18,825 nt of DNA from an uncultured Faecalibacterium sp. Lineage in GTDB: Bacteria; Bacillota; Clostridia; Oscillospirales; Ruminococcaceae. The notes beneath the pieces are model-generated. The model was given only the letters and a program-made list of their open reading frames with translations. It did not search any database and had not been told where the DNA came from. The stretch is taken from contig CAKSZE010000032.1 in NCBI GenBank assembly GCA_934525325.1, forward strand, positions 1 to 18,825. The letters run 5' to 3'. Below, piece by piece: positions 3,780 through 18,500 of the stretch (positions are counted from its first letter, which is position 1; each line of letters begins with the position of its first letter). Position numbers and translations under genes: made by a program.

Positions 3780-3821
3780 CGGCGGAAAAAACGCAGGACA
3801 GGAAACACAGAGGAACGAGCA

Positions 3822-4598: not shown

Positions 4599-4624
4599 GC
4601 GATACAAGACAAGGCAATGACGCC

Positions 4625-4665
4625 GGGCTTCTGCACAAAACCGGCAGAAGCCCTTTTTATTTTTT
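4625..4665 (+). terminator. Intrinsic terminator of the ATP-grasp/alpha-E/transglutaminase operon
   Basis: Perfect 10-bp stem GGGCTTCTGC (4625-4634) with GCAGAAGCCC (4644-4653), 9-nt loop, followed by TTTTTATTTTTT at 4654-4665. Confidence 0.93.
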
Positions 4666-4722
4666 AGAAGCTGTTTGCAATGCTTATGAAAACGGCTTCT
4701 CAGACAGGAGTGTGTAAGAACC

Positions 4723-5661
4723 ATGGAAGAAACCGTCGCAAGCCTTTCGCTTGCAGTACACGAAAAGCTGGAACTGAAAAAGAACCGGCTCACCCCGCTG
4801 CCCGGCAAGGACAGCGGAAAACGCATCTGTGTTGTCACCGGTGTGCACGGCGATGAGCTGGAGGGACAATATGTGGTCTACCTGCTCAACCGCCGCATTC
4901 AGGAGCACCCGGAGCTGCTGACGGGCACGGTGGATATCTACCCGGCAGTCAACCCGCTGGGCATCAACACCATTCAACGGGGCATCCCGCTGTTTGATCT
5001 GGATATGAACCGCATTTTCCCCGGCGATACCGATGGCCCCATGGCGGAATATTACGCTCATGCGGTGGTGGAGGATCTGCGCGGGGCGGATATCGCCATC
5101 GACATCCATGCCTCCAACATCTACCTGCGGGAGCTGCCGCAGGTGCGCATCTCGGAGGAGACCGCCCCGGCACTGGTGCCGCTGGCAGAACAGCTCAACG
5201 TGGATTTTGTCTGGGTCCATGCAGCAGCAACGGTGCTGGAAAGCACGCTGGCGCACAGTCTGAACGTCATCGGCACCCGTTGCCTTGTGGTGGAGATGGG
5301 CGTGGGAATGCGCCTGACCAAAAGCTACGGCGAGCAGCTGGTGGACGGCATTCTGAACCTGATGCACACGCAGGGAATGTGGGCAGGCGAGACAAAGCCA
5401 CCCCGCAAGCCCATCGTGAGCAAGGACGAGGTGGCGTTTATCAATGCGGATAAGGCGGGCGTTTTCATCCCCAGTGTGGAGCATAACGGCATTGTGAAAA
5501 AGGGGCAGGAGCTGGCAGTCATTGCGGACCCGCTGACAGGCGAGGTGCGGCAGACCCTGATGGCTCCGGCAGACGGTCTGCTGTTTACCCTGCGGGAATA
5601 TCCCGTGGTCTATCCGGGCAGCCTGCTGGCGCGCATCCTGACAGGAGGATTCCAGAAATGA
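4723..5661 (+). CDS. Succinylglutamate desuccinylase / aspartoacylase-like M14 zinc hydrolase (active-site complete)
   Basis: Zinc-dependent deacylase of the AstE/AspA branch of carboxypeptidase family M14 (COG3608-like). Such enzymes remove acyl groups from N-acyl amino acids or related amides. The key residues are present: zinc ligands His42 and Glu45 in GVHGDELEG, Asn96-Arg97 in DMNRIFPG, third zinc ligand His129 in DIHAS, and the probable catalytic Glu191 in VVEMGVG. The C-terminal ~100 residues form the usual beta-rich/barrel-sandwich-like domain. The length of 312 aa is normal. The start has a rather distant AGGAG (about 12 nt). It overlaps the next gene by 4 nt (ATGA), so the two products are probably made together. 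It is separated from the transglutaminase gene by a terminator, so linkage to that operon is only positional. Confidence 0.88.
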   Translation: MEETVASLSLAVHEKLELKKNRLTPLPGKDSGKRICVVTGVHGDELEGQYVVYLLNRRIQEHPELLTGTVDIYPAVNPLGINTIQRGIPLFDLDMNRIFPGDTDGPMAEYYAHAVVEDLRGADIAIDIHASNIYLRELPQVRISEETAPALVPLAEQLNVDFVWVHAAATVLESTLAHSLNVIGTRCLVVEMGVGMRLTKSYGEQLVDGILNLMHTQGMWAGETKPPRKPIVSKDEVAFINADKAGVFIPSVEHNGIVKKGQELAVIADPLTGEVRQTLMAPADGLLFTLREYPVVYPGSLLARILTGGFQK

Positions 5662-6602
5662 GAGAAGAAACGCTTTACGAGTTGGAAACGCCCTACCGCC
5701 AGAAATTCAAGATCAAGGGCTTCCGCTTTGGCGAGGGGGAAAAGGCCTGTGCCATGGTGGCTGCCGTGCGCGGCAACGAGGTGCAGCAGATGTACGTCTG
5801 CGCACTGCTGGTAAAAAAGCTGCGCAAGCTGGAAGAGCAGGGTGCCATTGCCCCCGGCAACGAGCTGCTGGTAGTGCCCTGCGTCAACCATTTTTCCATG
5901 AACGTGGGCAGCCGGTTCTGGGCGATGGACAAAACGGACATCAACCGGATGTTCCCCGGCTACGACCAGGGCGAAACCACCCAGCGCATTGCGGCGGCAC
6001 TGTTTGAGGCGGTGCAGGGCTATAAATACGGCATCCATTTTGCGTCCTTTTATCTGCCCGGCGATTTTGTGCCCCATGTGCGCATCATGAATACCGGCTA
6101 CCAGACGGCCAGTCTGGGCAACCTGTTCGGTCTGCCCTATGTGGTCATGCGCAAACCGGAACCCATTGATACGACCACCCTGAACTACAACTGGCAGGTC
6201 TGGGAAACGAACGCCTTCAGCGTCTACACCAAGGAGACGGATGAGATCGACGAGCACAGCGCACAGGAAGCCGTGGCGGCGGTGCTGCGGTACCTCAGCC
6301 GGGTGGGTCTGCTGCGTTATAACTGCCACAGCGGGTATCTTTCCTCTGTCGTGCAGGAATCCGAGATGGCCAATGTACTCACCCCGGCGGGCGGCATTTT
6401 CCGCCGCTTTGTAGAGCCGGGGCAGGAAGTGGAGTATGGTCAGAAATTGGGCGTCATCCTTGACCCGTTCACAGCAGAGGTAGAAGCAGAGATTATCTGC
6501 CCCACCAGCGGCGTTGTGTTCTTTGCGTTGAAAAAGCCGCTGGCAACCGAGCACGAGGTGGCCTTTAAGGTGATCCGGCGGCTGCATGGCGGCTGCTTGT
6601 AA
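5658..6602 (+). CDS. AstE/AspA-like M14 family paralogue with degenerate active site
   Basis: 314-aa paralogue of the preceding enzyme with the same fold order: RMFPG after DIN corresponds to the substrate Asn-Arg motif, and the C-terminal beta-rich domain (from about residue 230) is kept. The first zinc motif HGDE is here RGNE (Arg38 replaces the zinc His; Glu41 is kept). The third-ligand motif DIHAS is GIHFAS (His127 kept, Asp lost). The region matching the catalytic Glu reads VVMRKPEP. It is therefore probably a non-catalytic or altered partner of the upstream enzyme, perhaps a heterodimer subunit (inference). GGAGG lies 9 nt before the ATG, which overlaps the previous stop. A bidirectional terminator follows. 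Confidence 0.82.
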   Translation: MREETLYELETPYRQKFKIKGFRFGEGEKACAMVAAVRGNEVQQMYVCALLVKKLRKLEEQGAIAPGNELLVVPCVNHFSMNVGSRFWAMDKTDINRMFPGYDQGETTQRIAAALFEAVQGYKYGIHFASFYLPGDFVPHVRIMNTGYQTASLGNLFGLPYVVMRKPEPIDTTTLNYNWQVWETNAFSVYTKETDEIDEHSAQEAVAAVLRYLSRVGLLRYNCHSGYLSSVVQESEMANVLTPAGGIFRRFVEPGQEVEYGQKLGVILDPFTAEVEAEIICPTSGVVFFALKKPLATEHEVAFKVIRRLHGGCL

Positions 6603-7252: not shown

Positions 7253-7683
7253 GATGCGCTTTCTTTCCTTCCTCAGTGTGCCAAGATCCATATCTTATTT
7301 AAGCATAGCATAAGATGCCCCTGACCACAAGGGTAAATCTCTTTTGGAGTGAACGGTTTATCGCAGATTGTGTTTTTAATGCACAAGCGACATCCGCAAA
7401 CGGCATATCGCAAATATGCCGTTTTGATAGGAACTATTTCTAAAAAATGCAATAATAAAGAATTTATATAGTATTTGCAGGGGAAATGTGTTATAATGCG
7501 TTTGTAAAATATTATAATTGTTTTGCTTATTAAGCCGAATAATTGGTACATTTGACGATGCTGGAGGATCTGATGCAGAATGACAGAATGTGTCATCCAA
7601 CAACTTTATAGTATAAGTCAGTAAGGGCGTTCGTGCCCATATAAATAAAAACAAGTTCAAATTTTTTCAGGAGGATGTCAATT
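7253..7683. other. AT-rich intergenic region at the left border of the accessory region
   Basis: No protein gene is supported here; open frames are short and of low-complexity composition. The stretch is far more AT-rich than its left flank. It contains a perfect 10-bp hairpin (AAACGGCATA 7398-7407 with TATGCCGTTT 7415-7424), two TATAAT hexamers (7492-7497, 7513-7518) without good -35 partners, and the palindromic operator with its -10 box described separately. A small hairpin, GGGC-GTTCGT-GCCC, at 7624-7637 lies in the leader of the GTPase operon. Confidence 0.6.
7580..7612 (+). promoter_or_regulatory. Palindromic operator plus -10 box of the GTPase operon
   Basis: ATGACA (7580-7585), 5 bp, TGTCAT (7591-7596), then CC and 8 bp, then TATAGT (7607-7612) as -10. 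No acceptable -35 hexamer lies 16-18 bp upstream of the -10; the palindrome occupies that place. The same arrangement with identical spacing precedes the MoxR operon at 11784. A WYL regulator encoded between the two operons is the likely ligand (inference). Confidence 0.7.
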
Positions 7684-8706
7684 ATGGCAGAAAACGAAAA
7701 GACCCACCAGAAGCTTTTTGATGCGATGAACGACAGCATTATGAATGCCGATATTCCTGAGGAGGAAAAAAGCAAACTGCAGCGGAACCTCTTGCACCTC
7801 AGGGAACAGAAGATCAACCTGATGGTCACCGGTGCGACCGGCTGCGGCAAAAGCTCTACCATCAATGCTCTGTTCAACACCGAGAAAGCCAAGGTCGGCG
7901 TAGGTGTTGACCCTGAGACCATGGAGATCTCCCGGTATGAGCTGGACAATCTCATACTGTGGGATACCCCGGGTCTGGGCGACGGAAAGGTTGCTGATGA
8001 ACGTCACACTAAAAATATCGTCAGAAAGCTTCGGGAACGCGATGAGAACGGGAATTATCTCATCGATCTGGTTCTTGTGATTCTGGACGGCAGCTCCCGC
8101 GACCTTGGCACGTCCTACGATTTGATCAATAATGTCATCATTCCCAATTTGGGCGAGGACAAGAAAAACCGTATCTTGATTGCAATCAATCAGTGTGACG
8201 TTGCAATGAAGGGACGTTATTGGAATGAAGAAGAGTGCAAACCGGAACCGCAGCTTGAAAAGTTTCTGGATGAAAAAGTTGAATCCGTCCGAAAAAGAAT
8301 TATGGAAGGTACTGGTGTAGATATAACACCGATCTATTACAGTGCAGGTTATAAAGAAGAAGGTATGCCCCAAAGCAAGCCGTATAACCTTTCCAAGCTG
8401 CTGTACTACATCGTTACATATACCCCTGAAGAAAAACGGCTGGTGCTGGTTGATAATATCAACAAAGACAAGGATACTTGGGCGCACAGTGACGGCAAGT
8501 CTGATTACAACGCCAACACGGAAAGCGAATTTGCAAAAACTCTGGAAAAATACGGCACCCCCTTTGCAGATGCTGGTGAACAGATCGGCTCGGTGTTTGG
8601 TGGTACCGGCGCGGAGATCGGGCGCACCATCGGTGCCGGGATCGGGATCGCGGTTGGTGTTGGGGTCAGCATTGTAAAAGCACTCAATCCGTTCAGGTGG
8701 TTCTGA
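7684..8706 (+). CDS. Era/IRG-like GTPase 1 with glycine-rich C-terminal hydrophobic tail
   Basis: TRAFAC-class GTPase, 340 aa. G1 is GATGCGKS (50-57), G3 is WDTPGLGD (93-100), G4 is NQCD (169-172, a variant of NKxD), and YYSAG supplies a G5-like motif. The conserved GVDPETMEI after G1 probably carries the switch-I Thr. The C-terminus (about 300-336) is a Gly/Ala/Ile/Val stretch (GGTGAEIGRTIGAGIGIAVG...) typical of membrane-inserting glycine zippers. I chose ATG 7684 because AGGAGG (7669-7674) abuts the ATG at 7675 but sits 9 nt from this one. Its stop overlaps the next start (TGATG). It resembles 50S-binding/YfjP-like or interferon-inducible-type GTPases; the true family and role are unknown. 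Probably first gene of a three-GTPase operon under the upstream palindrome. Confidence 0.85.
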   Translation: MAENEKTHQKLFDAMNDSIMNADIPEEEKSKLQRNLLHLREQKINLMVTGATGCGKSSTINALFNTEKAKVGVGVDPETMEISRYELDNLILWDTPGLGDGKVADERHTKNIVRKLRERDENGNYLIDLVLVILDGSSRDLGTSYDLINNVIIPNLGEDKKNRILIAINQCDVAMKGRYWNEEECKPEPQLEKFLDEKVESVRKRIMEGTGVDITPIYYSAGYKEEGMPQSKPYNLSKLLYYIVTYTPEEKRLVLVDNINKDKDTWAHSDGKSDYNANTESEFAKTLEKYGTPFADAGEQIGSVFGGTGAEIGRTIGAGIGIAVGVGVSIVKALNPFRWF

Positions 8707-9389
8707 TGGACTATCGTGTTTACCGTGCTGCGGACATTGAGTACAAATTGCGGAGTCTTGGCGTCAGACCTCTGGACGTAATGGTGGCCGGTGTGACCGG
8801 TGCCGGAAAGTCAACAACGCTGAATGCGCTCTTTCAAAAGGACGTTGCTCGTGTAGGCCAGGGGGTCGATCCTGAAACGATGGAGATCACCGGCTACAAG
8901 CTGAATGATTGGTTCCGTATCTGGGATACGCCCGGACTGGGTGACAATGTCGAAACAGACTTGCAGCACAAAGAAAAAATGACCAAGCTTTTACGCTCCA
9001 CCTACCGCTACGGCAACGGGACTTACCGCGTGATCGACATGGCGCTGGTCATCATTGAAGGTGCAAATCGAGACATGGGCACCACCTACGATCTGTTGAA
9101 CAACGTTATTGTTCCGAACATCCAGAAAGACCGCATTTTTGTCGTGATCAATCAGGCTGATCTGGCACAGAAGGGTCATCACTGGAACCGTATCACCAAC
9201 ACCCCGGACGCTGTTCTGGCAGCGTTTCTGGAGCAGCAGGCTGTATCTGTCCAGCAGCGGGTCAAGGAATCTACCGGTGTCACCATACGAAAGCCCATCT
9301 GCTATTCCGCAGAATACGGATGGAATCTTCAGGCGGTGTTCGATTTTATCGTTGATAACATCCCCGCAAAGAGACGGGCATTAAGATAA
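8706..9389 (+). CDS. Era/IRG-like GTPase 2 (short, no tail)
   Basis: 227-aa paralogue of its neighbours made almost only of the G domain: G1 GVTGAGKS (29-36), GVDPETMEI following it, G3 WDTPGLGD (73-80), G4 NQAD (149-152), G5-like YSAEYG. The C-terminal extension and hydrophobic tail of the other two are missing, so it should be soluble. ATG 8706 overlaps the previous stop as TGATG, with AGGTGG just upstream; a GTG at 8697 is a less likely alternative start. Three different G domains in one operon suggest a hetero-oligomer in which this is a soluble subunit or regulator (inference). Confidence 0.85.
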   Translation: MDYRVYRAADIEYKLRSLGVRPLDVMVAGVTGAGKSTTLNALFQKDVARVGQGVDPETMEITGYKLNDWFRIWDTPGLGDNVETDLQHKEKMTKLLRSTYRYGNGTYRVIDMALVIIEGANRDMGTTYDLLNNVIVPNIQKDRIFVVINQADLAQKGHHWNRITNTPDAVLAAFLEQQAVSVQQRVKESTGVTIRKPICYSAEYGWNLQAVFDFIVDNIPAKRRALR

Positions 9390-9401
9390 GGAGTTGACAA
9401 T

Positions 9402-10334
9402 ATGAGTACGCATATCATAGATTCTCTTGAATCGCAGCTGAACGTAGTCCCTGACAGTCAAGAACTATTGAAGATCCTTGAAAAACTGAAGCGACAGAAG
9501 CTGAACATCATGTTTGTTGGAGCAACGGGCGTTGGTAAAAGCTCCACAATAAATTCGATTTTTAATATGGATGTTGCCAAGGTCGGCGATCGAGTAGACC
9601 CGGAAACTTCAACGATTCAGAAGTTTGAGCTTGACAATATCACTTTATGGGATACACCGGGTTTGGGCGACAGCCCTGAAAATGACAGACGCTATGCGGG
9701 AGAGATCGCATACGCGTTAAAAGAGCGCGATGAAAACGGTGACCTTCTGATTGATGAAGTGGTTGTTCTGATCGATGGCTCGAACCGTGATATGGGAACA
9801 GCTTACGAAGTAATTGAAAATATGATTGCTCCGTTGATTGGAGATCCTAAACGAATCGTAATTGCCATTAACCAGTGTGATATGGCCATGAAGGGCCGCG
9901 GCTGGAATCATGATTTAAACCTGCCTGAACCGTCGTTGGTAAATTTCCTGGATGAAAAAGTGCGCTCTGTGAAGGCTCGAATCGCAGAATCCACAGGCAT
10001 CGAAACAGAACCTATTTACTATTCTGCACTTTATCATTACAATATTTCAAAGCTCCTTTTAACGATGCTAAGTTCTCTGCCAGAAGGCAAGCGCTTTTTG
10101 CTTGCGGACTCCATGAACAAAGAATCTGGCATCTGGAAGAGAAATGACGATCATAAAAATTACAATCAGGAAATTCAAAAGACAATGACGGGATCTTTGA
10201 CTAAGGCCGTTGAAGGCGCAGCAAAGGGTGCTGTGGCTGGTGCAACGGTGGGAAATTTGATTCCGGTGATCGGCCCAGTCGTTGGTGCCGCAGTTGGTGC
10301 AGCATTGGGATTTCTTGGTGGTTTGCTCGGCTAA
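9402..10334 (+). CDS. Era/IRG-like GTPase 3 with glycine-zipper tail
   Basis: 310 aa, closest in layout to GTPase 1. Helical N-terminus 1-33, G1 GATGVGKS (40-47), RVDPET after it, G3 WDTPGLGD (83-90), G4 NQCD (157-160), G5-like YYSALY. The last ~45 residues (AVEGAAKGAVAGATVG..., then IPVIGPVVGAAVGAALG) form a small-residue hydrophobic hairpin like those of membrane-active glycine-zipper proteins. AAGGAG lies 9 nt before the ATG. It starts 12 bp after GTPase 2. Codon use is more AT-rich than in the flanking genes, consistent with transfer. A 16-bp-stem terminator follows. GTP hydrolysis is secure from motifs; location and partner are inferred. Confidence 0.87.
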   Translation: MSTHIIDSLESQLNVVPDSQELLKILEKLKRQKLNIMFVGATGVGKSSTINSIFNMDVAKVGDRVDPETSTIQKFELDNITLWDTPGLGDSPENDRRYAGEIAYALKERDENGDLLIDEVVVLIDGSNRDMGTAYEVIENMIAPLIGDPKRIVIAINQCDMAMKGRGWNHDLNLPEPSLVNFLDEKVRSVKARIAESTGIETEPIYYSALYHYNISKLLLTMLSSLPEGKRFLLADSMNKESGIWKRNDDHKNYNQEIQKTMTGSLTKAVEGAAKGAVAGATVGNLIPVIGPVVGAAVGAALGFLGGLLG

Positions 10335-10372
10335 ATAGTATGATTCGTATGATTTGACTTGAATCTAAAGTA

Positions 10373-10420
10373 AAAGAATGGTCTGTTCTGCATTTTATGA
10401 TGTGGAACAGACCATTCTTT
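10373..10420. terminator. Bidirectional terminator between the GTPase and WYL operons
   Basis: Perfect 16-bp stem: AAAGAATGGTCTGTTC (10373-10388) with GAACAGACCATTCTTT (10405-10420), 16-nt loop. It follows GTPase 3 on the plus strand and the small proline-rich gene on the minus strand. Confidence 0.85.
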
Positions 10421-10422
10421 GT

Positions 10423-10677
10423 TCAGTTGGTCGGTTTAACAGGCGGTGGAGGCAGCGGACGCTGCTTGATGCGCTCCTGTGTATGGATTTTGCCGTCCGC
10501 ATTAGTTTCTGCTTCATCAACCGGCTGCAAGACGGTCTCTTCCGTTACCACCTCTGCGGTGAGCGGTTTGCCCGGCTTCTTTTTCACAAAAACTCTCTTC
10601 CTTCCAAAATCTATTGGTTCAATTACGCTTCTGCGCAGCCGTACTGCCGTGAAGTTGTCCGCTATTTTTTTGTTCAT
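10423..10677 (-). CDS. Small basic, proline-rich hypothetical protein
   Basis: 84-aa protein beginning MNKKIADNFTAVRLRRSV and ending RPLPPPPVKPTN. No domain recognised. The first ~40 residues are basic, the middle is acidic and the tail is a PPPP stretch. The ATG at 10677 overlaps the end of the WYL gene region (TGATATG), with GAGGTG seven nt upstream, supporting translation directly after the WYL regulator. It could be a modulator of the regulator or an adaptor with a polyproline ligand; I do not recognise a function. Confidence 0.6.
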   Translation of the reverse strand: MNKKIADNFTAVRLRRSVIEPIDFGRKRVFVKKKPGKPLTAEVVTEETVLQPVDEAETNADGKIHTQERIKQRPLPPPPVKPTN

Positions 10678-10678
10678 A

Positions 10679-11701
10679 TCATTGCACCTCGGTTTCATCT
10701 TTGTATTGTTCCAGAATCTCTGTCAGGATCTTTTTCATCTCATCCCGAAGTGCCTGCGGTTCAAGCACTTCTATCCTGTTGCCCTGACTGAGCAGCCACA
10801 TGACGATGCCGTTGCCGTAGACCTCGGCTTCGATAATAGAGCCTTTTTCATCCTGAGAAATGACTTTTGCGGTGGGCAGGCGGTCAAGAACCGCTTCCAC
10901 ACTGGTGCCGGTATAGCGCAGCCGGATGCGCTGCAAACGGCCCGGATACATGAACTGCACCCGTTTGCGGAACTCGCCCTCCTGAAAACGTGTTGCATAC
11001 GGCAGCGAGAAGGTCTGTTCCAGTATTTTGCAATCTGTGATGCGATCAATGCGGAAAATGGCAGGATAATCGTATTTGCGGTTGTATTTTCCGTTTTTCT
11101 CTTCCGTAATGTAGGCGTTCAGGTAGAAGTAGTATTCCGAAAACAGGATGGATACTGGCTCCACAATGCGTTCCACGGCAAAAGCTACATCTGTGCCTTG
11201 CCGCTGGTAATGGATCTGCATCAGCTTGTGCTGCTGAATGTCGCAGCCAATTTCCCACAGCTTATCCTGAATGCCTGCCGGGTGGGTCAGTTCTACATAG
11301 TGGAACAGCTCATTGGAGATCAAATCGGAAACCAGCTTGATATTTTCCAGCGGCACACAGCCCGCCACCAGCTTGTTCAGGATAACGGACATTTCCTCTT
11401 TGGTAAATGCGCGGCTTTCCAGCAGAATTTTGCTCACTGCCAGGATCTCGCTGTTGGTCATCATCGGAGACGGACAGCCCACCAGCCGGAAACCTTTCTG
11501 CTGACGGTCATAAATGATCTGCCGGTTTTCTCCCTTGGCAACATTGTGTTCTGCAAGAAAGGCCCGGATATCGTCTATGTCTCTCTGGACGGAGCGCTCA
11601 TCAATGCCAAAGCGAAGGGCTTCTTCTGCTTTGGTAAGCGTTCGGCCAGCGCATAGGCGTTCGTACAAATCCAATATCCGCTCATTTTTAGAATAGTCCA
11701 T
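10679..11701 (-). CDS. WYL-domain HTH transcriptional regulator
   Basis: 340-aa DNA-binding regulator. The N-terminal HTH (about 5-60: RILDLYERL...LTKAEEALRFGIDERSVQRDIDDIRAFL) is of the DeoR/WYL type. A WYL domain lies about 150-230, with FYLNAYITE as the WYL-like motif and a conserved FRIDRI. A C-terminal WCX extension (250-335) includes the GNGIVMWLLSQG element. WYL domains bind ligands, often nucleotides or nucleic acids, and many such proteins control defence or DNA/RNA-damage genes. I chose ATG 11701 (GAGG 8 nt upstream) over an upstream in-frame start at 11803 that lies inside the operator. It is encoded between the two operons that share the palindrome and is divergent from the MoxR operon, so it is the likely regulator of both (inference). 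Confidence 0.88.
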   Translation of the reverse strand: MDYSKNERILDLYERLCAGRTLTKAEEALRFGIDERSVQRDIDDIRAFLAEHNVAKGENRQIIYDRQQKGFRLVGCPSPMMTNSEILAVSKILLESRAFTKEEMSVILNKLVAGCVPLENIKLVSDLISNELFHYVELTHPAGIQDKLWEIGCDIQQHKLMQIHYQRQGTDVAFAVERIVEPVSILFSEYYFYLNAYITEEKNGKYNRKYDYPAIFRIDRITDCKILEQTFSLPYATRFQEGEFRKRVQFMYPGRLQRIRLRYTGTSVEAVLDRLPTAKVISQDEKGSIIEAEVYGNGIVMWLLSQGNRIEVLEPQALRDEMKKILTEILEQYKDETEVQ

Positions 11702-11726
11702 CTTCTTAACCTCATTTCCTATCGTT

Positions 11727-11755
11727 AGTATACGAAAAAACTGCCTAAAAAACAA
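11727..11755 (-). promoter_or_regulatory. Possible promoter of the WYL regulator gene
   Basis: On the minus strand TTGTTT (11755-11750), 17 bp, TATACT (11732-11727). The start would be near 11720, some 20 nt before the ATG. The -10 is good and the -35 is partial. Confidence 0.5.
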
Positions 11756-11783
11756 TCTCAGGATAACTGCATTATAAATTTTT

Positions 11784-11819
11784 AGGATGACAGATTTTGT
11801 CATCCTGTTTTGTTATACT
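11784..11819 (+). promoter_or_regulatory. Palindromic operator plus -10 box of the MoxR/VWA/RtcB operon
   Basis: Perfect inverted repeat AGGATGACA (11784-11792), 5 bp, TGTCATCCT (11798-11806), followed by TATACT at 11814-11819. From TGTCAT to the -10 is exactly 10 bp, as in the GTPase operon. There is no recognisable -35 at 16-18 bp. The inverted repeat is centred near -31 of this promoter and near -75 of the divergent WYL promoter. Confidence 0.75.
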
Positions 11820-11853
11820 ATGGCTAAACAAACGGGAAAGGAGAAATAGCAAG

Positions 11854-11916
11854 GTGAAACTTTTGAATGATGGAAAGAAACCCATCCGAAAAATTATGGA
11901 GGTAAGATTGCTTTGA
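11854..11916 (+). CDS. Possible 20-codon leader peptide overlapping the moxR start
   Basis: GTG at 11854, 10 nt after AGGAG, opens a 20-codon frame reading VKLLNDGKKPIRKIMEVRLL. It ends at TGA 11914-11916, overlapping the TTG start of the AAA+ gene (11913-11915). It may serve translational coupling; it could also be chance. Confidence 0.35.
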   Translation: MKLLNDGKKPIRKIMEVRLL

Positions 11917-12971
11917 ATCTTGCAGTATCGGTTGACCAGAAACAGCTTCTGGATATTTTATTGAATGTTGGCGTTGTGCGCCCTGTCTTTATCTGGGGAG
12001 CACCCGGCATCGGCAAGTCTGCTATCGTAGAGCAGTTCGCCGCAGATATGGGACTGCCCTGCGTTTCGCTTCTGGGCAGTCAGCTTGCGCCGGAAGATAT
12101 TATCGGTGTGCCGCAAATCGTAAATGGCCGCAGCGTGTTCTGCCCGCCTAAAATGATCGCACGGGAAGAACCTTATTGTCTGTTTCTGGATGAATTGAAC
12201 GCCTGCTCGCAGGAGGTGCAAAAAGCATTTTATTCCCTCATTCTGGAACGGCGCATCGGGGAATACCACCTGCCCAAAGGCTCTATTGTGATTGGCGCAG
12301 GCAACCGTGCGCAGGATAACGCCATCACCCGGCCTATGTCCTCTGCACTGCTCAACCGGATGTTCCATGTTGAACTTCGCGCCGACAGCCGTATCTGGCT
12401 GGAATGGGCCGCAGGGCATGGCATTCATCCCTATGTGTACGATTACATTTGTTTCCGTCCGGACCAATTGTGGAGTCCGCCCTCCAAAACAGAAGAACCT
12501 TTTTCTTCTCCCCGCAGCTGGCACATGCTCAGCGATGCTATCATCAGTTATGGCGATTCTATTTCGGAACAGGAACTGGCGGTTCTGGCAAACGGCTGTC
12601 TGACCGCTGCTCATGCAGCACAGTTTGTCGCCTATGTCCGGCAGGTGCGGCAGGCATATTCCATCACGAAAATTATCAACGGTACACAGACCTGGCCGGA
12701 CAAGCCGGAAGAGCGGGATATTCTCTATTTTCTGGCGCAGAGCTTCCGAGCACAGCTGCTGAAAGAGCTGCCCCGCAACCGCAGCAAACTCACTTCTGCT
12801 ACGCAGAACCTCACACTGCGCGCAAAGGAATTGTTGGTCGAACTGGCGGGCATCAGTCTGGAAATCGCACAGATGGCCATTACCCCGGAGAATGGCGAAA
12901 CGCTTCCCGCATGGTTCATCGTGGAAGTGACTCGTGACCTGCCCGCACTGACCAAAAAGAAGATGGGGTGA
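11913..12971 (+). CDS. MoxR-type AAA+ ATPase
   Basis: 352-aa AAA+ ATPase of the MoxR clade, which works as a chaperone-like remodeller with VWA-domain partners. Walker A is GAPGIGKS (29-36), Walker B is CLFLDELN (Asp93-Glu94), sensor-1 is GAGNR (Asn131), followed by SSALLNRMFHVEL with a probable Arg finger. The start is TTG at 11913 with GGAGG about 10 nt upstream, overlapping a possible leader peptide stop. The next gene begins 4 nt after its stop. MoxR/VWA pairs usually assemble or activate another protein; here RtcB and a PrfH fragment are the downstream candidates (inference). Confidence 0.88.
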   Translation: MNLAVSVDQKQLLDILLNVGVVRPVFIWGAPGIGKSAIVEQFAADMGLPCVSLLGSQLAPEDIIGVPQIVNGRSVFCPPKMIAREEPYCLFLDELNACSQEVQKAFYSLILERRIGEYHLPKGSIVIGAGNRAQDNAITRPMSSALLNRMFHVELRADSRIWLEWAAGHGIHPYVYDYICFRPDQLWSPPSKTEEPFSSPRSWHMLSDAIISYGDSISEQELAVLANGCLTAAHAAQFVAYVRQVRQAYSITKIINGTQTWPDKPEERDILYFLAQSFRAQLLKELPRNRSKLTSATQNLTLRAKELLVELAGISLEIAQMAITPENGETLPAWFIVEVTRDLPALTKKKMG

Positions 12972-12975
12972 CGAT

Positions 12976-14733
12976 ATGGGCCGAAAAGAGGAAAAAACGC
13001 AGCAGGACAGCATTCCCGTATGGCGAAAAGCTATCGAGAAAATTGGGGATGGTCCCCTGTTCCGACTTGCATACTGTACGCGTGTGTACTGCGCCGAACG
13101 CTATCCCATGGCAAAAGCAGACTGGGCTTATGTTACAAACGATGGGGACATCTACCTGAACCCACACCGGAAAGCATCCGTTGGAGAGTGGGAGTATATC
13201 ATAAGTCACTGCCTATTGCATCTTGGCTTCGGGCATTTTCAGAAAGAACGTATGAAAGACAGCCATTGGAATATGGCCTGTGATCTGGTCGTTGCCCGTT
13301 TCCTGAAAGACAGCCATATCGGCACACCGCCGCCGGAGTTTCAGCAGGAGCTGCCCTTTCCGGTCAAAGAGGAAGAGCAGGCATTCCGGCAATTACAGAC
13401 GGCATCGGTTTCTGGAAGCATTTTTAGCACTATGACTGGCGGCAGACCCGATATGGTATGGAATCGGGATGACATCAAAACGGATTATACAGAAATTTTT
13501 GCCGAGTCTCTTCAGGCATCCATGCAGAAAACCTTGATGGAATCCAGAGGAATTTCCACCGGACATCAGTATTACTGGATGCGGCCTGTTTATTTACAGG
13601 CACGGGACTGGTTTCTGTCCAGTTTTCCGCTGCTGGGTGCAGTAGCTTCGGCATTCCGTATTGTAGACAACAACGACGCTGTTTCCCGGCTGAACATCCC
13701 GGTTGCAGCAGTCAGCCCGCAACTGGGCGAAATCTATATCAATACTCACTGTCGTCTGAATCTGGAAGAGTGGAAATTTGTGCTGGCACATGAATTTCTT
13801 CATGCAGCTCTGCGCCATGACCTGCGCTGTGAGGATAGAATGCCGGAACTCTGGAACGTTGCCTGCGATTATGTGGTGAATAGCTGGCTCTGTGAGATGA
13901 AAGTAGGCTGTATGCCAGAGTCAGCACTGTTCGATAACCAGTTTCATGCGATGTCCGCAGAAGCGGTCTATGACCAGCTTTGTGAGAATATCCGGCAGTA
14001 TCTGAAAGAAAATCCGGGTGATCTGCTGTATGGCGATGGCTCAGAAGTGGTAGATTTGAACGGCAACAAGCTGGATTCCGTCTATCGCTCCGCCTTGCAG
14101 CAGGGGCTTGTGTATCACACCCAGCAGAACCGTGGCTATCTGCCTGCCGGTCTGATTGAAGAAATTCATGCACTCTCCCGTCCGCCCATTTCGTGGGATG
14201 TGGAATTGGGAAAATGGTTTGATGAAAACTTTACGGTCGTGGAAAAGCATCGTTCCTATGCACGGCTCAGTCGGCGGCAGAGTTCTACCCCGGACATTCC
14301 GCGCCCTGCATGGCGGCTGGAAGAGCATCTGGAAAAGCAGCAGACGTTTGCGGTGCTGCTGGACACCTCCGGTTCCATGTCCCGTGGACTGCTGGCGGCA
14401 GCACTCGGTTCTATTGCAAGTTACAGTGAAGCCAGAGATGTGCAGACTATCCGGGTGGTTTTCTGTGATGCTGCTGTTTACGATCAAGGGATGATGACCC
14501 CGGAAGAGATTGCCGGAGCCGTTCAGGTCAAGGGGCGCGGCGGTACTCGTTTGCAACCCGGAATCGATTTGCTGGAAAATGATGTTCGCTTTCCAAAAGA
14601 TGCGCCGCTGCTCATCATTACAGATGGGGAATGTGACCGGCTCAATCTGCGAGGACGTAGCCACGCTTATCTGATTCCGTGGGGCAAGCGGCTCCCGTTT
14701 CCACCCAAAGGGCCGGTGTTCCGGCTGAAATAA
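12976..14733 (+). CDS. VWA-domain protein with duplicated metallopeptidase-like module (DUF2201-like)
   Basis: 585 aa. Two copies of a metallopeptidase-like unit are visible. Copy one (about 15-110) has EWEYIISHCLLHLGFGH and WNMACDLVVARF. Copy two (about 215-310) has EWKFVLAHEFLHAALRH and WNVACDYVVNSW. Copy two keeps an intact HExxH (His272-Glu273...His276). In copy one the Glu is Cys79 (His78-C-L-L-His82), so it is probably inactive as a protease. The C-terminal third is a VWA-like domain with MIDAS DTSGSMS starting at Asp463 and a later ITDGECD. It lies 4 nt after the MoxR gene and 15 nt before rtcB. MoxR ATPases typically act through such VWA proteins bound by Mg2+. Confidence 0.85.
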   Translation: MGRKEEKTQQDSIPVWRKAIEKIGDGPLFRLAYCTRVYCAERYPMAKADWAYVTNDGDIYLNPHRKASVGEWEYIISHCLLHLGFGHFQKERMKDSHWNMACDLVVARFLKDSHIGTPPPEFQQELPFPVKEEEQAFRQLQTASVSGSIFSTMTGGRPDMVWNRDDIKTDYTEIFAESLQASMQKTLMESRGISTGHQYYWMRPVYLQARDWFLSSFPLLGAVASAFRIVDNNDAVSRLNIPVAAVSPQLGEIYINTHCRLNLEEWKFVLAHEFLHAALRHDLRCEDRMPELWNVACDYVVNSWLCEMKVGCMPESALFDNQFHAMSAEAVYDQLCENIRQYLKENPGDLLYGDGSEVVDLNGNKLDSVYRSALQQGLVYHTQQNRGYLPAGLIEEIHALSRPPISWDVELGKWFDENFTVVEKHRSYARLSRRQSSTPDIPRPAWRLEEHLEKQQTFAVLLDTSGSMSRGLLAAALGSIASYSEARDVQTIRVVFCDAAVYDQGMMTPEEIAGAVQVKGRGGTRLQPGIDLLENDVRFPKDAPLLIITDGECDRLNLRGRSHAYLIPWGKRLPFPPKGPVFRLK

Positions 14734-14748
14734 AAGAAAGGCATTACT

Positions 14749-15852
14749 TTGATTACAATACAAAACACTTATAATTCTGCGCTGGTTTACGCAGAGACTT
14801 TGGATTCCGGCGCAGAGGGACTGATTCGCGCACTGTGCGGCAGTCCAATCTCAAAAGGCAGCAGCATCCGTATTATGCCGGATGTTCACGCCGGAAAAGG
14901 CTGTGCAGTCGGCACTACAATGACCATCAAGGACTGTGTTGCTCCCGGTCTGGTGGGCGTGGACATTGGCTGCGGAATGCTGGCTGTCAAGTTCCATGCA
15001 AAGCGCCTGGAGCTGCAAAAGCTGGATAAACTGATTCACGATAAAATTCCGGCTGGAAGACAGGTGCGCTTTGTGCCGCATCATTTTGCGGAACAGGCAG
15101 ATCTGGATGAGCTGCTTTGTCTGCGTCATGTCCAGAAAGATAAGGCTCTTTGTGCGGTGGGCACATTGGGCGGTGGCAACCATTTTATCGAGGTAGATAA
15201 CGCAGAGGGCGGCGCATACTGGCTCATTATCCATTCCGGCAGTCGGCGGCTTGGTGTTGAAGTGGCATCGTTTTACCAGAACGAAGCGTTTCACCAGTGC
15301 CCGGCGGGTACATCTTTTGAGCTGGCCTATGCTACGGAAAGCCTGATGGACGATTATCTGCATGATATGAAAATCACGCAGGCGTTTGCCGAACTGAACC
15401 GCAGAGCGATTGCCAACGACATCATCAAGGGCATGAAGCTTGATGTGGAGGAAACAATTTCCACCGTCCACAACTACATTGATTTGGATTCCATGATTCT
15501 GCGCAAAGGCGCAGTTTCCGCAAAAGCAGGCGAAAAACTCATAATTCCGATGAATATGAGGGATGGCTGCTTGCTCTGCGTTGGAAAAGGCAACCCGGAG
15601 TGGAACGAATCGGCTCCCCACGGTGCAGGCCGCCTGATGAGCCGTGCAGATGCACGAAACAGCTTTACACTGTCGCAGTACAAAAAAGAGATGAAGGGCA
15701 TCTATACCAGCTCTGTTGATCGGAATACACTGGACGAAAGCCCGATGGCATATAAGCCGATGGAATTGATCCTCCGGCAGATCGAACCCACCGTGGAAAT
15801 CGTAGAGCGGACAAAGCCCATCTACAACTTTAAGGCGAGTGAGGAAATTTGA
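14749..15852 (+). CDS. rtcB: RtcB RNA-splicing/repair ligase
   Basis: GTP- and Mn2+-dependent ligase that joins RNA 2',3'-cyclic phosphate (3'-phosphate) ends to 5'-OH ends, repairing RNAs cut by ribonucleases. Active-site residues are present: Asp45 and His47 in PDVHAGKG, Cys75 in DIGCGM, Asn144-His145 in GGGNHF, His162 in IHSGSRR, and the guanylylated His291 in PHGAGRLMSR. At 367 aa it belongs to the shorter bacterial form. Start is TTG 14749 with GAAAGG upstream. Three nt after its stop comes the beginning of a PrfH-like gene, which identifies it as the RtcB2 type paired with PrfH in ribosome rescue and repair. No RtcA (cyclase) is encoded nearby. Confidence 0.93.
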   Translation: MITIQNTYNSALVYAETLDSGAEGLIRALCGSPISKGSSIRIMPDVHAGKGCAVGTTMTIKDCVAPGLVGVDIGCGMLAVKFHAKRLELQKLDKLIHDKIPAGRQVRFVPHHFAEQADLDELLCLRHVQKDKALCAVGTLGGGNHFIEVDNAEGGAYWLIIHSGSRRLGVEVASFYQNEAFHQCPAGTSFELAYATESLMDDYLHDMKITQAFAELNRRAIANDIIKGMKLDVEETISTVHNYIDLDSMILRKGAVSAKAGEKLIIPMNMRDGCLLCVGKGNPEWNESAPHGAGRLMSRADARNSFTLSQYKKEMKGIYTSSVDRNTLDESPMAYKPMELILRQIEPTVEIVERTKPIYNFKASEEI

Positions 15853-15854
15853 AA

Positions 15855-15989
15855 ATGATCTATCAAATCAGTTCGGGTCAGGAGCCTGCTGAGTGCGAGC
15901 TTGGTGTGGCAAAATTTCTGAACTACCGGGCCGATTCTGATCACGGTGACCTCTTGCAGTTCGTGCACGGCGCTCTCCCGGGGAGCTAA
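15855..15989 (+). pseudogene. prfH: Truncated prfH (peptide chain release factor homologue H), N-terminus only
   Basis: The frame opens MIYQISSGQEPAECELGVAK, followed by FL. This resembles the N-terminus of PrfH (LQ-SS-QGP-EC-LAV in the E. coli protein), and prfH is the standard neighbour of this rtcB type. Homology stops after about codon 22; from 15921-15925 the DNA is a tRNA-Ala-like repeat read in an arbitrary frame until TAA at 15987-15989, giving a 44-aa remnant. The GGQ-containing release-factor domain is absent from the window. The ATG lies 2 bp after the rtcB stop, as expected for coupled translation. Assignment rests on a short match recalled from memory plus context. Confidence 0.7.
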
Positions 15990-15995
15990 GCCCTC
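15925..15995 (-). pseudogene. Degenerate tRNA-Ala-like copy, outer (3' end lost)
   Basis: The minus strand shows a GAGGGCT 5' arm, an intact GCTC/GAGC D-stem, an anticodon-like arm with loop ACGAACT, the block GCAAGAGGTCACCG shared with the true tRNA, and an enlarged T-arm (GTGATCAGAATCGG). The acceptor 3' strand and CCA are missing because the copy joins the prfH fragment here. It is offset about 139 bp from the middle copy. Confidence 0.65.
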
Positions 15996-16013
15996 GCTCA
16001 TTCGGTGTCAATG

Positions 16014-16050
16014 AAAAAAGCACCACACATTTCTGTGCGGTGCTTTTCTT
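16014..16050. terminator. Bidirectional hairpin terminator, first copy
   Basis: GCACC-A-CACA (16020-16029) pairs with TGTG-C-GGTGC (16034-16043) around TTTC. A-run 16014-16019 gives a U-tract on the minus strand; TTTTCTTTC follows on the plus strand, where it can end the rtcB operon. Confidence 0.8.
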
Positions 16051-16052
16051 TC

Positions 16053-16135
16053 TGGTGGAGATTACCGGGCCGATTCAAATCACGGTGACCTCTTGCAGTC
16101 CATGCACGGCGCTCTCCCGGGTGAACTGGACCCTC
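16053..16135 (-). pseudogene. Degenerate tRNA-Ala-like copy, middle (CCA retained)
   Basis: 83-nt copy of the tRNA-Ala gene that keeps AATCTCCACCA at its 3' end but has an acceptor 5' strand GAGGGTC that no longer pairs fully. The anticodon-like loop is ATGGACT, and the T-arm is enlarged by about 6 nt (GTGATTTGAATCGG). It shares these changes with the outer copy, so both derive from one variant. Probably not a working tRNA. Confidence 0.7.
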
Positions 16136-16152
16136 ACTCGTTTAGCATTAAC

Positions 16153-16190
16153 AAAAAAGCACCACACATTTCTGTGCGGTGCTTTTCTTT
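16153..16190. terminator. Terminator of tRNA-Ala, second copy of the hairpin
   Basis: Same hairpin as at 16020-16043, here at 16159-16182, with A-run 16153-16158 (U-tract on the minus strand). Exactly 139 bp from the first copy. Confidence 0.85.
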
Positions 16191-16191
16191 C

Positions 16192-16267
<76 letters not shown>

Positions 16268-16300
16268 AGATGTTTTTCCTCGTGCCTGACGACGTGTGTA

Positions 16301-16428: not shown

Positions 16429-16995
16429 TTAGCGTGCCTGACGGTCAAAGATCTGCGGGGCCACGCGGCACAGCAGCACAGCGGCCACCATGGTAAGCAG
16501 GGTCTCGGGCAGCATATAGCTGCCGTTGTAGGTCAGGCTGTAAGTCCATGCGGCCAGACCGTCGGTCAGGTTGCCCCAGACCAGCACGCCGGACAAAAAG
16601 CTGCACATAAAGCGCAGGAAACCGGCGGCAAAGGTGCCCACGGCCACGCCCACGGTGCGGTTCTTGAAGGGACGGGCGAACAGCTCGGCCAGACCCAGTG
16701 CCATAAAGGCCAGCACATAGTCCAGCAGCACCTCACCGAGGAAGTAGAGGAAGGTGGAAGCGGGAGGAGGGTAGAAGCCCATGATCATTTGCAGGCAGGA
16801 GTTCACGAAACCGGTGAACAGGCCCCACTTTGCGCCGTGGCGGAAGGACACCAGCACAAAGGGCAGCATGCTCAGCAGGGTGATGCTGCCGCCGTTGGGC
16901 ATGGTGAAGAACTTGATGTTGGAAAGCACCGTGCCAATGGCGATCATCAGGGCGCATTCCACCAGAATACGGGTCTTGGAATAGGTTTTGGACAT
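16429..16995 (-). CDS. thiT: ThiT, thiamin-specific S component of an ECF transporter
   Basis: 188-aa integral membrane protein that binds thiamin and works with the shared EcfA1/A2/T energising module (not in this window). The family signature FFTMPNGGSITLLSMLPF (about 30-47) is followed by HGAKWGLFTGF and LGEVLLDYVLAFMALGLAELF. About six hydrophobic segments span the protein, with conserved Trp and Tyr residues typical of the thiamin site. The predicted start is ATG 16995 with GAGAGG about 12 nt upstream. A TPP riboswitch with a terminator hairpin controls it, which independently supports the substrate. Confidence 0.93.
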   Translation of the reverse strand: MSKTYSKTRILVECALMIAIGTVLSNIKFFTMPNGGSITLLSMLPFVLVSFRHGAKWGLFTGFVNSCLQMIMGFYPPPASTFLYFLGEVLLDYVLAFMALGLAELFARPFKNRTVGVAVGTFAAGFLRFMCSFLSGVLVWGNLTDGLAAWTYSLTYNGSYMLPETLLTMVAAVLLCRVAPQIFDRQAR

Positions 16996-17291: not shown

Positions 17292-17540
17292 ATGAAAGCC
17301 GATCCGGAACAGCGCGCCGTGCAGTTGGGGGAGTACATTGCCGCCCACAACGCCACGGTGCGGGCAGCGGCGGCTGCGTTCGGGTGCAGCAAGTCCACCG
17401 TGCACAAGGACGTTGCCGTGCGGCTGCGCAGCATCAGCCCTGCGCTGTACGGGCAGGTGCGTGCCGTGCTGGCGCGCAACAAGGCCGAGCGTCATCTGCG
17501 GGGCGGGGCTGCCACCCGGCGCAGATACAGCCGCCGCTAA
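17292..17540 (+). CDS. spoIIID: SpoIIID, mother-cell sporulation transcription factor
   Basis: 82-aa DNA-binding protein that switches mother-cell transcription between the sigma-E and sigma-K phases. The HTH AAAFGCSKSTVHKDVAVRL (about 26-44) and the C-terminal KAERHLRGGAAT motif match Bacillus SpoIIID closely, and length is as expected. ATG 17292 has GGAGG 6 nt upstream; longer upstream frames run through the thiT promoter and riboswitch and are not credible. It is divergent from thiT and followed by its own terminator. Its presence with sigG indicates a genome that keeps sporulation genes. Confidence 0.93.
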   Translation: MKADPEQRAVQLGEYIAAHNATVRAAAAAFGCSKSTVHKDVAVRLRSISPALYGQVRAVLARNKAERHLRGGAATRRRYSRR

Positions 17541-17732: not shown

Positions 17733-18500
17733 TTATCCCCCGGTGTGAAACTGCTGCAATGCGCCTTTTTCCAGCCGGCTTACCTGCGCCTGACTGATGC
17801 CGATCTCCTGCGCCACCTCCATCTGGGTCTTGCCGCGCAGATACCGCAGCTCCATAATGCGCTTTTCCCGGGGCGTAAGGGCGGCTACCGTATCGCGGAA
17901 CTGCAGCCCGCTGATCCAGCTTTCCTCGCTGTCCGGGTCGCGCACCTGATCGATGACATACATCGCATCGCCGCCGTCGGTGTATACCGGCTCATCAAGG
18001 CTGAGCGGCTCCACCACCGATTCCAGCGCGGCGGTCACCTCGCGCCTAGCAAGGCCCGCTGCGGCGGCGATCTCGTCCATGGTGGGCTCGCGCCCCAGCT
18101 GCTTTTCCAGCGTTTCCCGCGCCTGCATGGCGCGATACGCGGTGTCCCGCAGGGTGCGGCTTACCCGCAGGGCGTTGTTGTCCCGCAGGAACCGTCGGAT
18201 CTCCCCGATGATCATCGGCACGCCGTAGGTGGAGAACCGCACCGGCTGCGCGGGGTCAAAGTTGTCGATAGCCTTTATCAACCCGATGCACCCCACCTGA
18301 AACAGATCGTCCAGATTTTCGCCCCGCTGGGCAAACCGCTGCACCACGCTGAGCACCAGCCGCAGGTTGCCCTCCACCATCCGCGCCCGGGCAGCCTTGT
18401 CCCCGGCGTGGGCAAGGGTGAGCAGCTGCCGCTTTTCCGCCTCGGTCAGCACGGGCAGCTGCCCTGTGTTAACACCGCATAGCTCCACCTTGTTGTACAT
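17733..18500 (-). CDS. sigG: RNA polymerase sigma-G factor (forespore)
   Basis: 255-aa sigma-70 family factor that runs late forespore transcription. The N-terminus NKVELCGVNTGQLPVLT is the sigma-G hallmark (anti-sigma/gating region). Region 2 has NLRLVLSVVQRF, DDLFQVGCIGLIKAIDNFD and FSTYGVPMIIGEIRRFLRDNN. Region 4 has LTPREKRIMELRYLRGKTQMEVAQEIGISQAQVSRLEKGAL with the -35-binding HTH. Length and motif order agree with Bacillus SigG. ATG 18500 follows GGGGGC. No spoIIGA or sigE is adjacent, unlike in Bacillus. A terminator-like hairpin lies upstream on the same strand. Confidence 0.95.
   Translation of the reverse strand: MYNKVELCGVNTGQLPVLTEAEKRQLLTLAHAGDKAARARMVEGNLRLVLSVVQRFAQRGENLDDLFQVGCIGLIKAIDNFDPAQPVRFSTYGVPMIIGEIRRFLRDNNALRVSRTLRDTAYRAMQARETLEKQLGREPTMDEIAAAAGLARREVTAALESVVEPLSLDEPVYTDGGDAMYVIDQVRDPDSEESWISGLQFRDTVAALTPREKRIMELRYLRGKTQMEVAQEIGISQAQVSRLEKGALQQFHTGG

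Follow-up and report, generated by a model that had tools for sequence, protein, structure and literature searches.

A WYL-family regulator gene between GTPase and MoxR-VWA-RtcB operons that share a palindrome at a fixed distance from the −10 box in an uncultured Faecalibacterium sp.

Two WYL-family transcription factors that resemble the one considered here, PafBC and DriD, respond to single-stranded DNA (ssDNA). PafBC is an ssDNA-activated factor that works through sigma adaptation at a −26 motif (PMC11804915). The LexA-independent, PafBC-dependent genes of mycobacteria share the promoter tTGTCRgtg-8nt-TannnT (PMC5656591), which the PafBC binding motif closely resembles (PMC8223512), and SiwR likewise requires its −26 region (PMC10693628). 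DriD of Caulobacter crescentus is also ssDNA-activated and binds ATACGAC(X)7GTCGTAT, at sites that overlap the −35 region and lie at a constant distance from the −10 (PMC12340889, a preprint). Here we describe a locus on an 18,825-nt stretch of DNA (contig CAKSZE010000032.1 of an uncultured Faecalibacterium sp.; hereafter the window) where an operon of three GTPase genes and a MoxR-VWA-RtcB operon lie on either side of one WYL gene, a layout given in the original prediction and confirmed from the open reading frames (ORFs) and Pfam matches. We think it somewhat probable that this locus is an accessory stress or defence island under its own WYL-family transcription factor, with PafBC/DriD-like, ssDNA-triggered activation of three promoters.

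Both operons carry the identical palindrome ATGACA-N5-TGTCAT, separated by exactly 10 nt from a TATA-like −10 box downstream, as had been noticed before. Upstream of the GTPase operon (7580-7612, + strand), the palindrome at 7580-7596 is followed by a 10-nt spacer and TATAGT at 7607-7612. The other palindrome (11787-11803, within 11771-11819) is shared by two −10-like boxes, each at exactly 10 nt: TATACT at 11814-11819 (+) on the MoxR-VWA-RtcB side and, missed earlier, TATAAT at 11776-11771 (−) on the WYL side. Because this palindrome is usable in both directions, three likely promoters carry the site, not two. All three oriented promoters of the window have the PafBC-type geometry (TGTCR, 11 nt, TAnnnT), and the operators contain the DriD-type palindromic GAC-N7-GTC core at a fixed distance from the −10.

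The fixed spacing recurs in other genomes. With repeats removed, the strict palindromes comprise 17 distinct sites from the fetched loci and the two of the window, and in 17 of these 19 TAnnnT follows at a distance of exactly 10 nt, read in one or both orientations. The 10-nt offset accounts for 20 of the 37 oriented strict sites, the 21 other offsets totalling 33 occurrences (binomial 3e-18). For the core GACA-N5-TGTC with TAnnnT, the 28 WYL loci hold 40 sites at offset 12 and 57 over 17 other offsets (mean 3.4); the 103 other loci hold 26 at offset 12 and 27 over 17 other offsets (mean 1.6). This count leaves out four repeating loci and short nested loci and includes some stretches twice (for example L155/L211 and L045/L130); 63 of the 66 core sites are distinct. 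A relaxed scan, made in both orientations and with some repeated loci counted, returned 43 sites, against 3, 5, 0, 2 and 3 in five Markov-shuffled sets. Genome-wide, TGACA-N5-TGTCA-N11-TAnnnT occurs at 18 sites in seven of ten genomes with a WYL protein of this group and at three sites in two of ten without; read backwards, the same pattern gives three and two sites, respectively. This contrast is descriptive, several of the ten WYL genomes having been picked from loci with sites already seen. All strict sites of genomes G004, G007, G008 and G009 are on the contig of the WYL gene, and the regulon therefore looks local to an island; G749 has strict sites on three contigs.

Elsewhere, too, the operator precedes genes of the kinds seen in the window. 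It lies upstream of GTPase genes, first in their unit or later, in 15 loci (L003, L035, L036, L037, L039, L041, L042, L043, L045, L047, L049, L053, L056, L058 and L066), and upstream of RtcB-MoxR-VWA genes in L159, where it is perfect, and in L152, where it has one mismatch. In L155, a MoxR-VWA-RtcB-PrfH operon has it 431 nt upstream with one mismatch. The WYL gene itself is preceded by the operator within 300 nt in nine of the 28 WYL loci. Given the same operator and spacing before GTPase, RtcB/MoxR/VWA and WYL genes in other genomes, the sequence data support the earlier proposal that one WYL protein is the common regulator of both operons. Genes of other kinds also follow the operator: in L003, by Pfam, genes for DUF932, YqaJ nuclease, RecT and DUF5688; in L041 and L047, DUF932 and YqaJ relatives; and in L058, a pair of dynamin-like genes. 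Three proteobacterial GTPase loci carry the form CGACA-N5-TGTC at identical spacing (L034:7429, L048:8655, L070:8116), 62-84 nt upstream of a YfjR-like regulator gene. Since these three loci keep the core at equal spacing, the site seems to follow this kind of regulator across phyla.

The WYL regulator (340 aa, 10679-11701, − strand) has WYL and WCX domains (Pfam 1.6e-6 and 6.5e-10) and belongs to the WYL family by PF13280 (28.4 bits, cut-off 21.8) and PF25583 (39.7 bits, cut-off 23.9). The N-terminal helices of its structural model suggest a helix-turn-helix (HTH)-like N-terminus, no HTH family having been reported. In a Foldseek search with the model, the best PDB matches are DriD and then PafBC, ahead of CapW and BrxR. 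Two residues, R178 and Y193, are invariant in an alignment of 20 sequences and 15 residues apart, as are R181 and Y196 of PafB, a correspondence that is suggestive only. With PafBC the locus shares the WYL/WCX and N-terminal HTH architecture, the promoter TGTCA, 11 nt, TAnnnT and the Foldseek match. PafBC, however, is a heterodimer whose site is not palindromic (PMC6789036), and its targets exceed 150 genes (PMC10693628), whereas the window has one WYL gene and palindromic half sites, and the window-type site is confined to the WYL contig in four genomes. DriD is alike in its palindromic GAC-N7-GTC core, fixed −10 distance, −35 overlap and rank as best PDB match; it differs in its flanking letters (ATAC/GTAT versus AT/AT here), its other target genes and its weak sequence similarity to the WYL protein (profile E 0.008). 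An ssDNA-triggered activator is favoured because the spacing is that of PafBC promoters, the core that of DriD, and the fold matches DriD and then PafBC. By analogy with these factors, ssDNA would be a likelier signal than damaged RNA, and from the promoter geometry we infer activation, not repression.

The main rival explanation, which we regard as rather unlikely, takes the WYL protein to be a repressor like BrxR that covers the −35 region and frees it on ligand binding. The operator does span the place of a −35 element and also precedes the WYL gene, a classic autorepressor layout, and BrxR binds inverted repeats and represses (PMC9122601). A repressor, however, has no need of a −10 spacing that holds to the exact nucleotide in 17 of the 19 strict palindromes and equals that of PafBC-dependent promoters, and DriD and PafBC, which head the fold matches, are activators. 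Moreover, the hexamers 16-18 nt upstream of the −10 in the GTPase and MoxR promoters match TTGACA, by eye, at no more than two of six positions.

Several observations weigh against an ssDNA-triggered activator that reads this operator. According to PMC10693628 and, for BrxR, PMC9122601, the known WYL regulators of phage defence are repressors. Confidence in the WYL model is middling (mean predicted local distance difference test, pLDDT, 72; predicted TM-score, pTM, 0.49), with TM-scores of about 0.3 to DriD and PafBC. Within the 18.8-kb window, the palindrome alone was found twice at up to three mismatches, with 0.70 expected and at least two in 28 of 200 shuffles; it becomes significant because of the identical spacing and the comparative data, not by the window count alone. 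The spaced operator recurs in a minority of the fetched loci. With up to two mismatches and within 700 nt, just eight of 90 GTPase loci have it (L043 and L209 being one genome) and just four of 29 RtcB/MoxR/VWA loci (L126 being a poor match), many of the GTPase loci sampled coming from other phyla or having no WYL match. No site of this kind lies within 300 nt upstream of the WYL gene in 19 of the 28 WYL loci, and of the five genomes whose WYL matches are best, three (G795, G810 and G691) have no strict site genome-wide; one-mismatch sites are present in G795 and G691.

These distributions also bear on a further explanation, that a different host regulator reads the palindrome and has the WYL gene as one target among others. 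Twenty-six core sites do lie in loci without a WYL match of at least 240 bits, and the three genome-wide sites noted above are in the ten genomes without a WYL match at 1e-80. Site density is nevertheless higher in WYL loci (40 sites in 482 kb versus 26 in 1487 kb), the proteobacterial loci L034, L048 and L070 keep the core at equal spacing before a YfjR-like gene, and both geometry and core fit known WYL proteins. We therefore consider a different regulator very improbable.

For the preferred ssDNA-responsive activator we propose the following scheme. A WYL homodimer would be activated by a nucleic-acid ligand, most likely ssDNA arising from DNA damage or invasion. The activated protein would bind ATGACA-N5-TGTCAT, which would replace a −35 element, and recruit the housekeeping polymerase in the manner of PafBC and DriD. 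Three promoters would be switched on, namely that of the WYL gene itself and those of the GTPase and MoxR-VWA-RtcB operons. The first operon could supply TRAFAC GTPases acting at the membrane or the ribosome, and the second could provide protein remodelling and RNA ligation. The part of this scheme that the sequences show comprises the gene content, the operator, its fixed spacing and its recurrence before the same kinds of operon elsewhere.

The original prediction also took the GTPases and the RtcB group to be a single conserved system. We sampled 77 GTPase loci, from the best 80 matches listed among species genomes. VWA proteins were searched in a sample of 247 genomes from one family, of which 22 have a match at 1e-3 and five of these one below 1e-100; in 391 genomes from one class, of which five match at 1e-80; and in 299 genomes from a second family, of which 14 match. 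The WYL protein was searched in the same 299 genomes (28 at 1e-80); the groups sampled are probably Ruminococcaceae, Clostridia and Lachnospiraceae. The sampled VWA proteins are about 40-55% identical to that of the window in the main segment, and the nearest metagenomic relatives up to 94%. A window-type WYL gene (at least 50 bits) is present in 14 of the 77 GTPase loci, or 17 with YfjR-like forms included; RtcB, VWA and PrfH are each found in none of the 77 at the same threshold. The 26 VWA loci (25 genomes) include six with RtcB, two with WYL (a partial match in L115) and one with PrfH, and none has a GTPase of at least 150 bits. Many loci end at contig ends, where linkage can escape such counts. 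In G691, a WYL gene lies about 14 kb from the VWA gene on the same contig, beyond the stretch counted; G003 has GTPases and WYL on one contig and MoxR-VWA with the operator on another. Linkage of the two operons in related genomes had been set beforehand as a test, which largely failed outside the window, and the counts of 0/77 and 0/26 speak against one conserved GTPase-RtcB system.

Co-occurrence in the 299 genomes is weak as well; it was scored with GTPase genome counts that are lower bounds, the searches having scored some first-look candidates only, and with uncorrected p-values. VWA and GTPase occur together in one genome (0.33 expected, p 0.29), WYL (1e-80) and VWA in two (1.3 expected, p 0.38), and WYL (1e-80) and GTPase in three (0.66 expected, p 0.02). 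For the five best WYL genomes, a cut chosen after the scores were seen, VWA co-occurs in two (0.23 expected, p 0.019) and GTPase in one (0.12 expected, p 0.11). A circumstantial hint that close relatives of the window's genes share contigs comes from longest contigs of exactly equal size, with five VWA-WYL, one VWA-GTPase and one GTPase-WYL pairs against 0-1 per off-by-n control; this pairing used sizes of at least 5000 and the best 120 matches per search, many of them excluded for lying on short contigs, which left 75, 59 and 66 proteins. One joint contig besides the window is hinted at only by P0027 and P0181, whose contigs are both of 10217 bp. The combination of GTPase and RtcB operons in the window is real, yet it is not a conserved unit among the loci sampled. 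Judged from these sequences, the two operons look like exchangeable modules that have come under the same switch, and not like parts of a single ancient machine.

RtcB proteins rejoin RNA ends, and the RtcB2-PrfH pair is said to protect against colicin E3 (PMC9223846). Such protection fits an explanation of the whole locus as one RNA-damage response, where the WYL protein senses cleaved RNA and RtcB/PrfH and the GTPases repair it and rescue ribosomes. The RtcB of the window (14749-15852, +; Pfam 1.3e-62) has its five motifs, and L155 has MoxR-VWA-RtcB followed by a full-length PrfH (TIGR03072, 169 bits, above the cut-off of 166.65) downstream of the operator. A prfH gene had been predicted in the RtcB operon of the window as well. 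Its first codons do follow directly after RtcB, but the frame (15855-15989, +) is broken after about 24 codons, in the first tRNA-Ala unit; the match to TIGR03072 covers residues 1-24 of 200 and scores 17.8 bits. Because the gene order of L155 is identical and ends in a full-length PrfH, the window's prfH is likely a leftover of an L155-type arrangement. The proposal of ribosome rescue rested on PrfH, which in the window is reduced to this remnant. RtcB, PrfH and GTPases are present in six, one and none of the 26 VWA loci and RtcB in 0/77 GTPase loci, and the same operator precedes DUF932, YqaJ and RecT genes, which are of the DNA-recombination kind. We judge a single RNA-damage response improbable. 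The earlier claim that RNA damage is sensed through the WYL protein is likewise unsupported, the promoter geometry being that of the ssDNA-responsive WYL activators PafBC and DriD.

Compared with RtcB-PrfH (RtcB2-PrfH) operons, the locus is alike in the order RtcB then prfH, its complete four-gene form being that of L155; it is unlike them in its broken prfH, in the added MoxR and VWA genes and in an RtcB that scores 103 bits on TIGR03073 (the RtcB of the PrfH pair), below the cut-off of 271.8. The RtcB of L155 is also below it, at 105.8 bits. The RtcB-PrfH neighbours named in PMC6514570 are TPR and nucleotidyltransferase, and the terms 'moxr' and 'vwa' are absent from its main text.

The three GTPases are GTP1 (343 aa, 7675-8706, +; Pfam MMR_HSR1 3.6e-10, IIGP 1.7e-8, AIG1 2.3e-7), a TRAFAC-type protein with a glycine-rich hydrophobic C-terminal tail, GTP2 (227 aa, 8706-9389, +), identified by Pfam search and alignment to GTP1 and without a tail, and GTP3 (310 aa, 9402-10334, +), identified by Pfam and an AlphaFold model and with a glycine-zipper-like tail. 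GTP1 is 45% identical to GTP2 and 48% to GTP3 in the alignment. A letter search found G.TG.GKS, WDTPGLGD and NQ.D alike in all three, as well as HEFLH and DTSGS in the VWA protein, GAPGIGKS in MoxR and the five motifs of RtcB; we take these to be signatures of their families. GTP1 and GTP3 exceed the cut-offs of IIGP (34.4 and 26.6 bits; cut-off 24) and AIG1 (30.8 and 30.1 bits; cut-off 27) over partial profile alignments, GTP2 being below both, and a fold search with the GTP3 model has Era, IRG, GIMAP and Toc34 GTPases among its best matches. The glycine-rich tails of two of the GTPases suggest membrane insertion or oligomerisation. The locus resembles LeoABC/dynamin-like and IRG/GIMAP immune GTPases in having a G domain of the TRAFAC immune-GTPase kind. 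The match is mainly to the G domain, and the best score of the three GTPases on the LeoA model NF041922 is 33.7 bits (cut-off 325). PADLOC returned partial LeoA/LeoBC, generic WYL and other marginal matches only, and we rejected assignment to a known defence system.

The YfjP-YfjQ-YfjR genes of the Escherichia coli K-12 prophage CP4-57 are similar in that a GTPase, a DUF932 protein and a putative regulator adjoin, YfjP having weak similarity to GTP1 and GTP3 (E about 3e-10). The similarity of YfjR to the window's WYL protein is confined to 34 aa (E = 0.001), and the CP4-57 stretch shown has no RtcB. A candidate CP4-57 operator, GACA-N5-TGTC 186 nt before yfjR, was rejected for having no TAnnnT at the right distance.

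MoxR (11913-12971, +; TTG start in the ORF list) is an AAA+ ATPase (AAA_5 3.9e-11) and adjoins a DUF2201 metallopeptidase-like and VWA protein (12976-14733, +; DUF2201_N 1.2e-19, DUF2201 2.9e-9) with HExxH and metal-ion-dependent adhesion site (MIDAS) motifs. Together the two probably work as a remodeller driven by ATP or as a protease-like machine. MoxR-vWA ternary conflict systems (PMC7159879) share the adjoining MoxR and VWA genes but differ from the window, where bpMoxR (PF20030) scores 21.6 bits, below its cut-off of 27, and VMAP and iSTAND are not among the Pfam matches; the term 'rtcb' is absent from the main text of that paper.

Where the GTPase and WYL transcription units converge, a hairpin with a 14-bp stem (10375-10418) was read from the sequence and is probably a two-way terminator. 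A short ORF of up to 91 aa (10423-10698, −) overlaps the end of the WYL gene and had no match in family searches. Three tandem tRNA-Ala units (15924-16267, −; spacing 139 and 133 nt), two degenerate and the third an intact tRNA-Ala(GGC) at 16192-16267, are the right edge of the island, and the array resembles a hot spot of integration or recombination. The two degenerate tRNA-Ala-plus-terminator units are 93% alike in a stretch of 59 nt; prfH is truncated by the first of them. A tRNA direct repeat as left border was rejected, no repeat of at least 24 nt joining the left side to the array. A phage or plasmid origin was considered and set aside: a megablast of 7500-16300 met 31 plasmid and two phage records, and all the places listed (20 of the 31 plasmid and both phage records) fall in query positions 8654-8794, the tRNA. 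GTP3 has no matches in phages and the VWA protein no relatives in viral contigs; both have distant plasmid matches. Among the matches listed, the island flanks are found in 35 of 35 related-genus genomes, mostly at about 65-78%, the pieces lying on different contigs or far apart.

Other features were seen in the window and in loci with the operator. In L155, the WYL operator with its promoter occurs four times, in almost identical form, on one strand within 7.5 kb (11929-19400); one copy is that before MoxR-VWA-RtcB-PrfH, and the ORFs behind the remaining copies are of uncertain function. The ORFs after the sites L159:804, L210:8045 and L221:9308 have, by eye, a common N-terminal stretch of about LxELxExF...WLxxxYYE; the L210 protein has no Pfam matches. 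On a plasmid of Eubacterium eligens (L163), a related WYL gene lies ahead of a hypothetical and a dynamin-family gene, another WYL-GTPase pairing. Beyond the tRNA array, the window has a thiamine pyrophosphate (TPP) riboswitch (Rfam RF00059; 17081-17181, −) upstream of a small membrane protein (16429-16995, −), presumably a thiamine transporter, a short HTH ORF (17292-17540, +), which we take to be SpoIIID-like, and a sigma factor with sigma-70 domains (17733-18500, −), presumably of the sporulation type. To the left, five genes in a row (1804-6602), presumably ATP-grasp, alpha-E, transglutaminase-like and two aspartoacylase-like, are possibly a peptide-making cluster.

In the parts of the open-licence literature consulted, we found no description of this combination or of the operator in Firmicutes. 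We put forward only tentatively, as a possibility that may well not hold, that an ssDNA-sensing WYL activator with a portable promoter code (GACA-N5-TGTC, 12 nt, TAnnnT) and PafBC/DriD geometry runs defence and repair islands in Firmicutes and some Proteobacteria, here coupling DNA damage or invasion to RtcB and IRG-like GTPases, and that the code could be used to find defence genes. If this is true, a short promoter code would predict WYL-controlled genes in Firmicutes, and RNA repair and little-studied tailed GTPases would be tied to a signal of the DNA-damage type.

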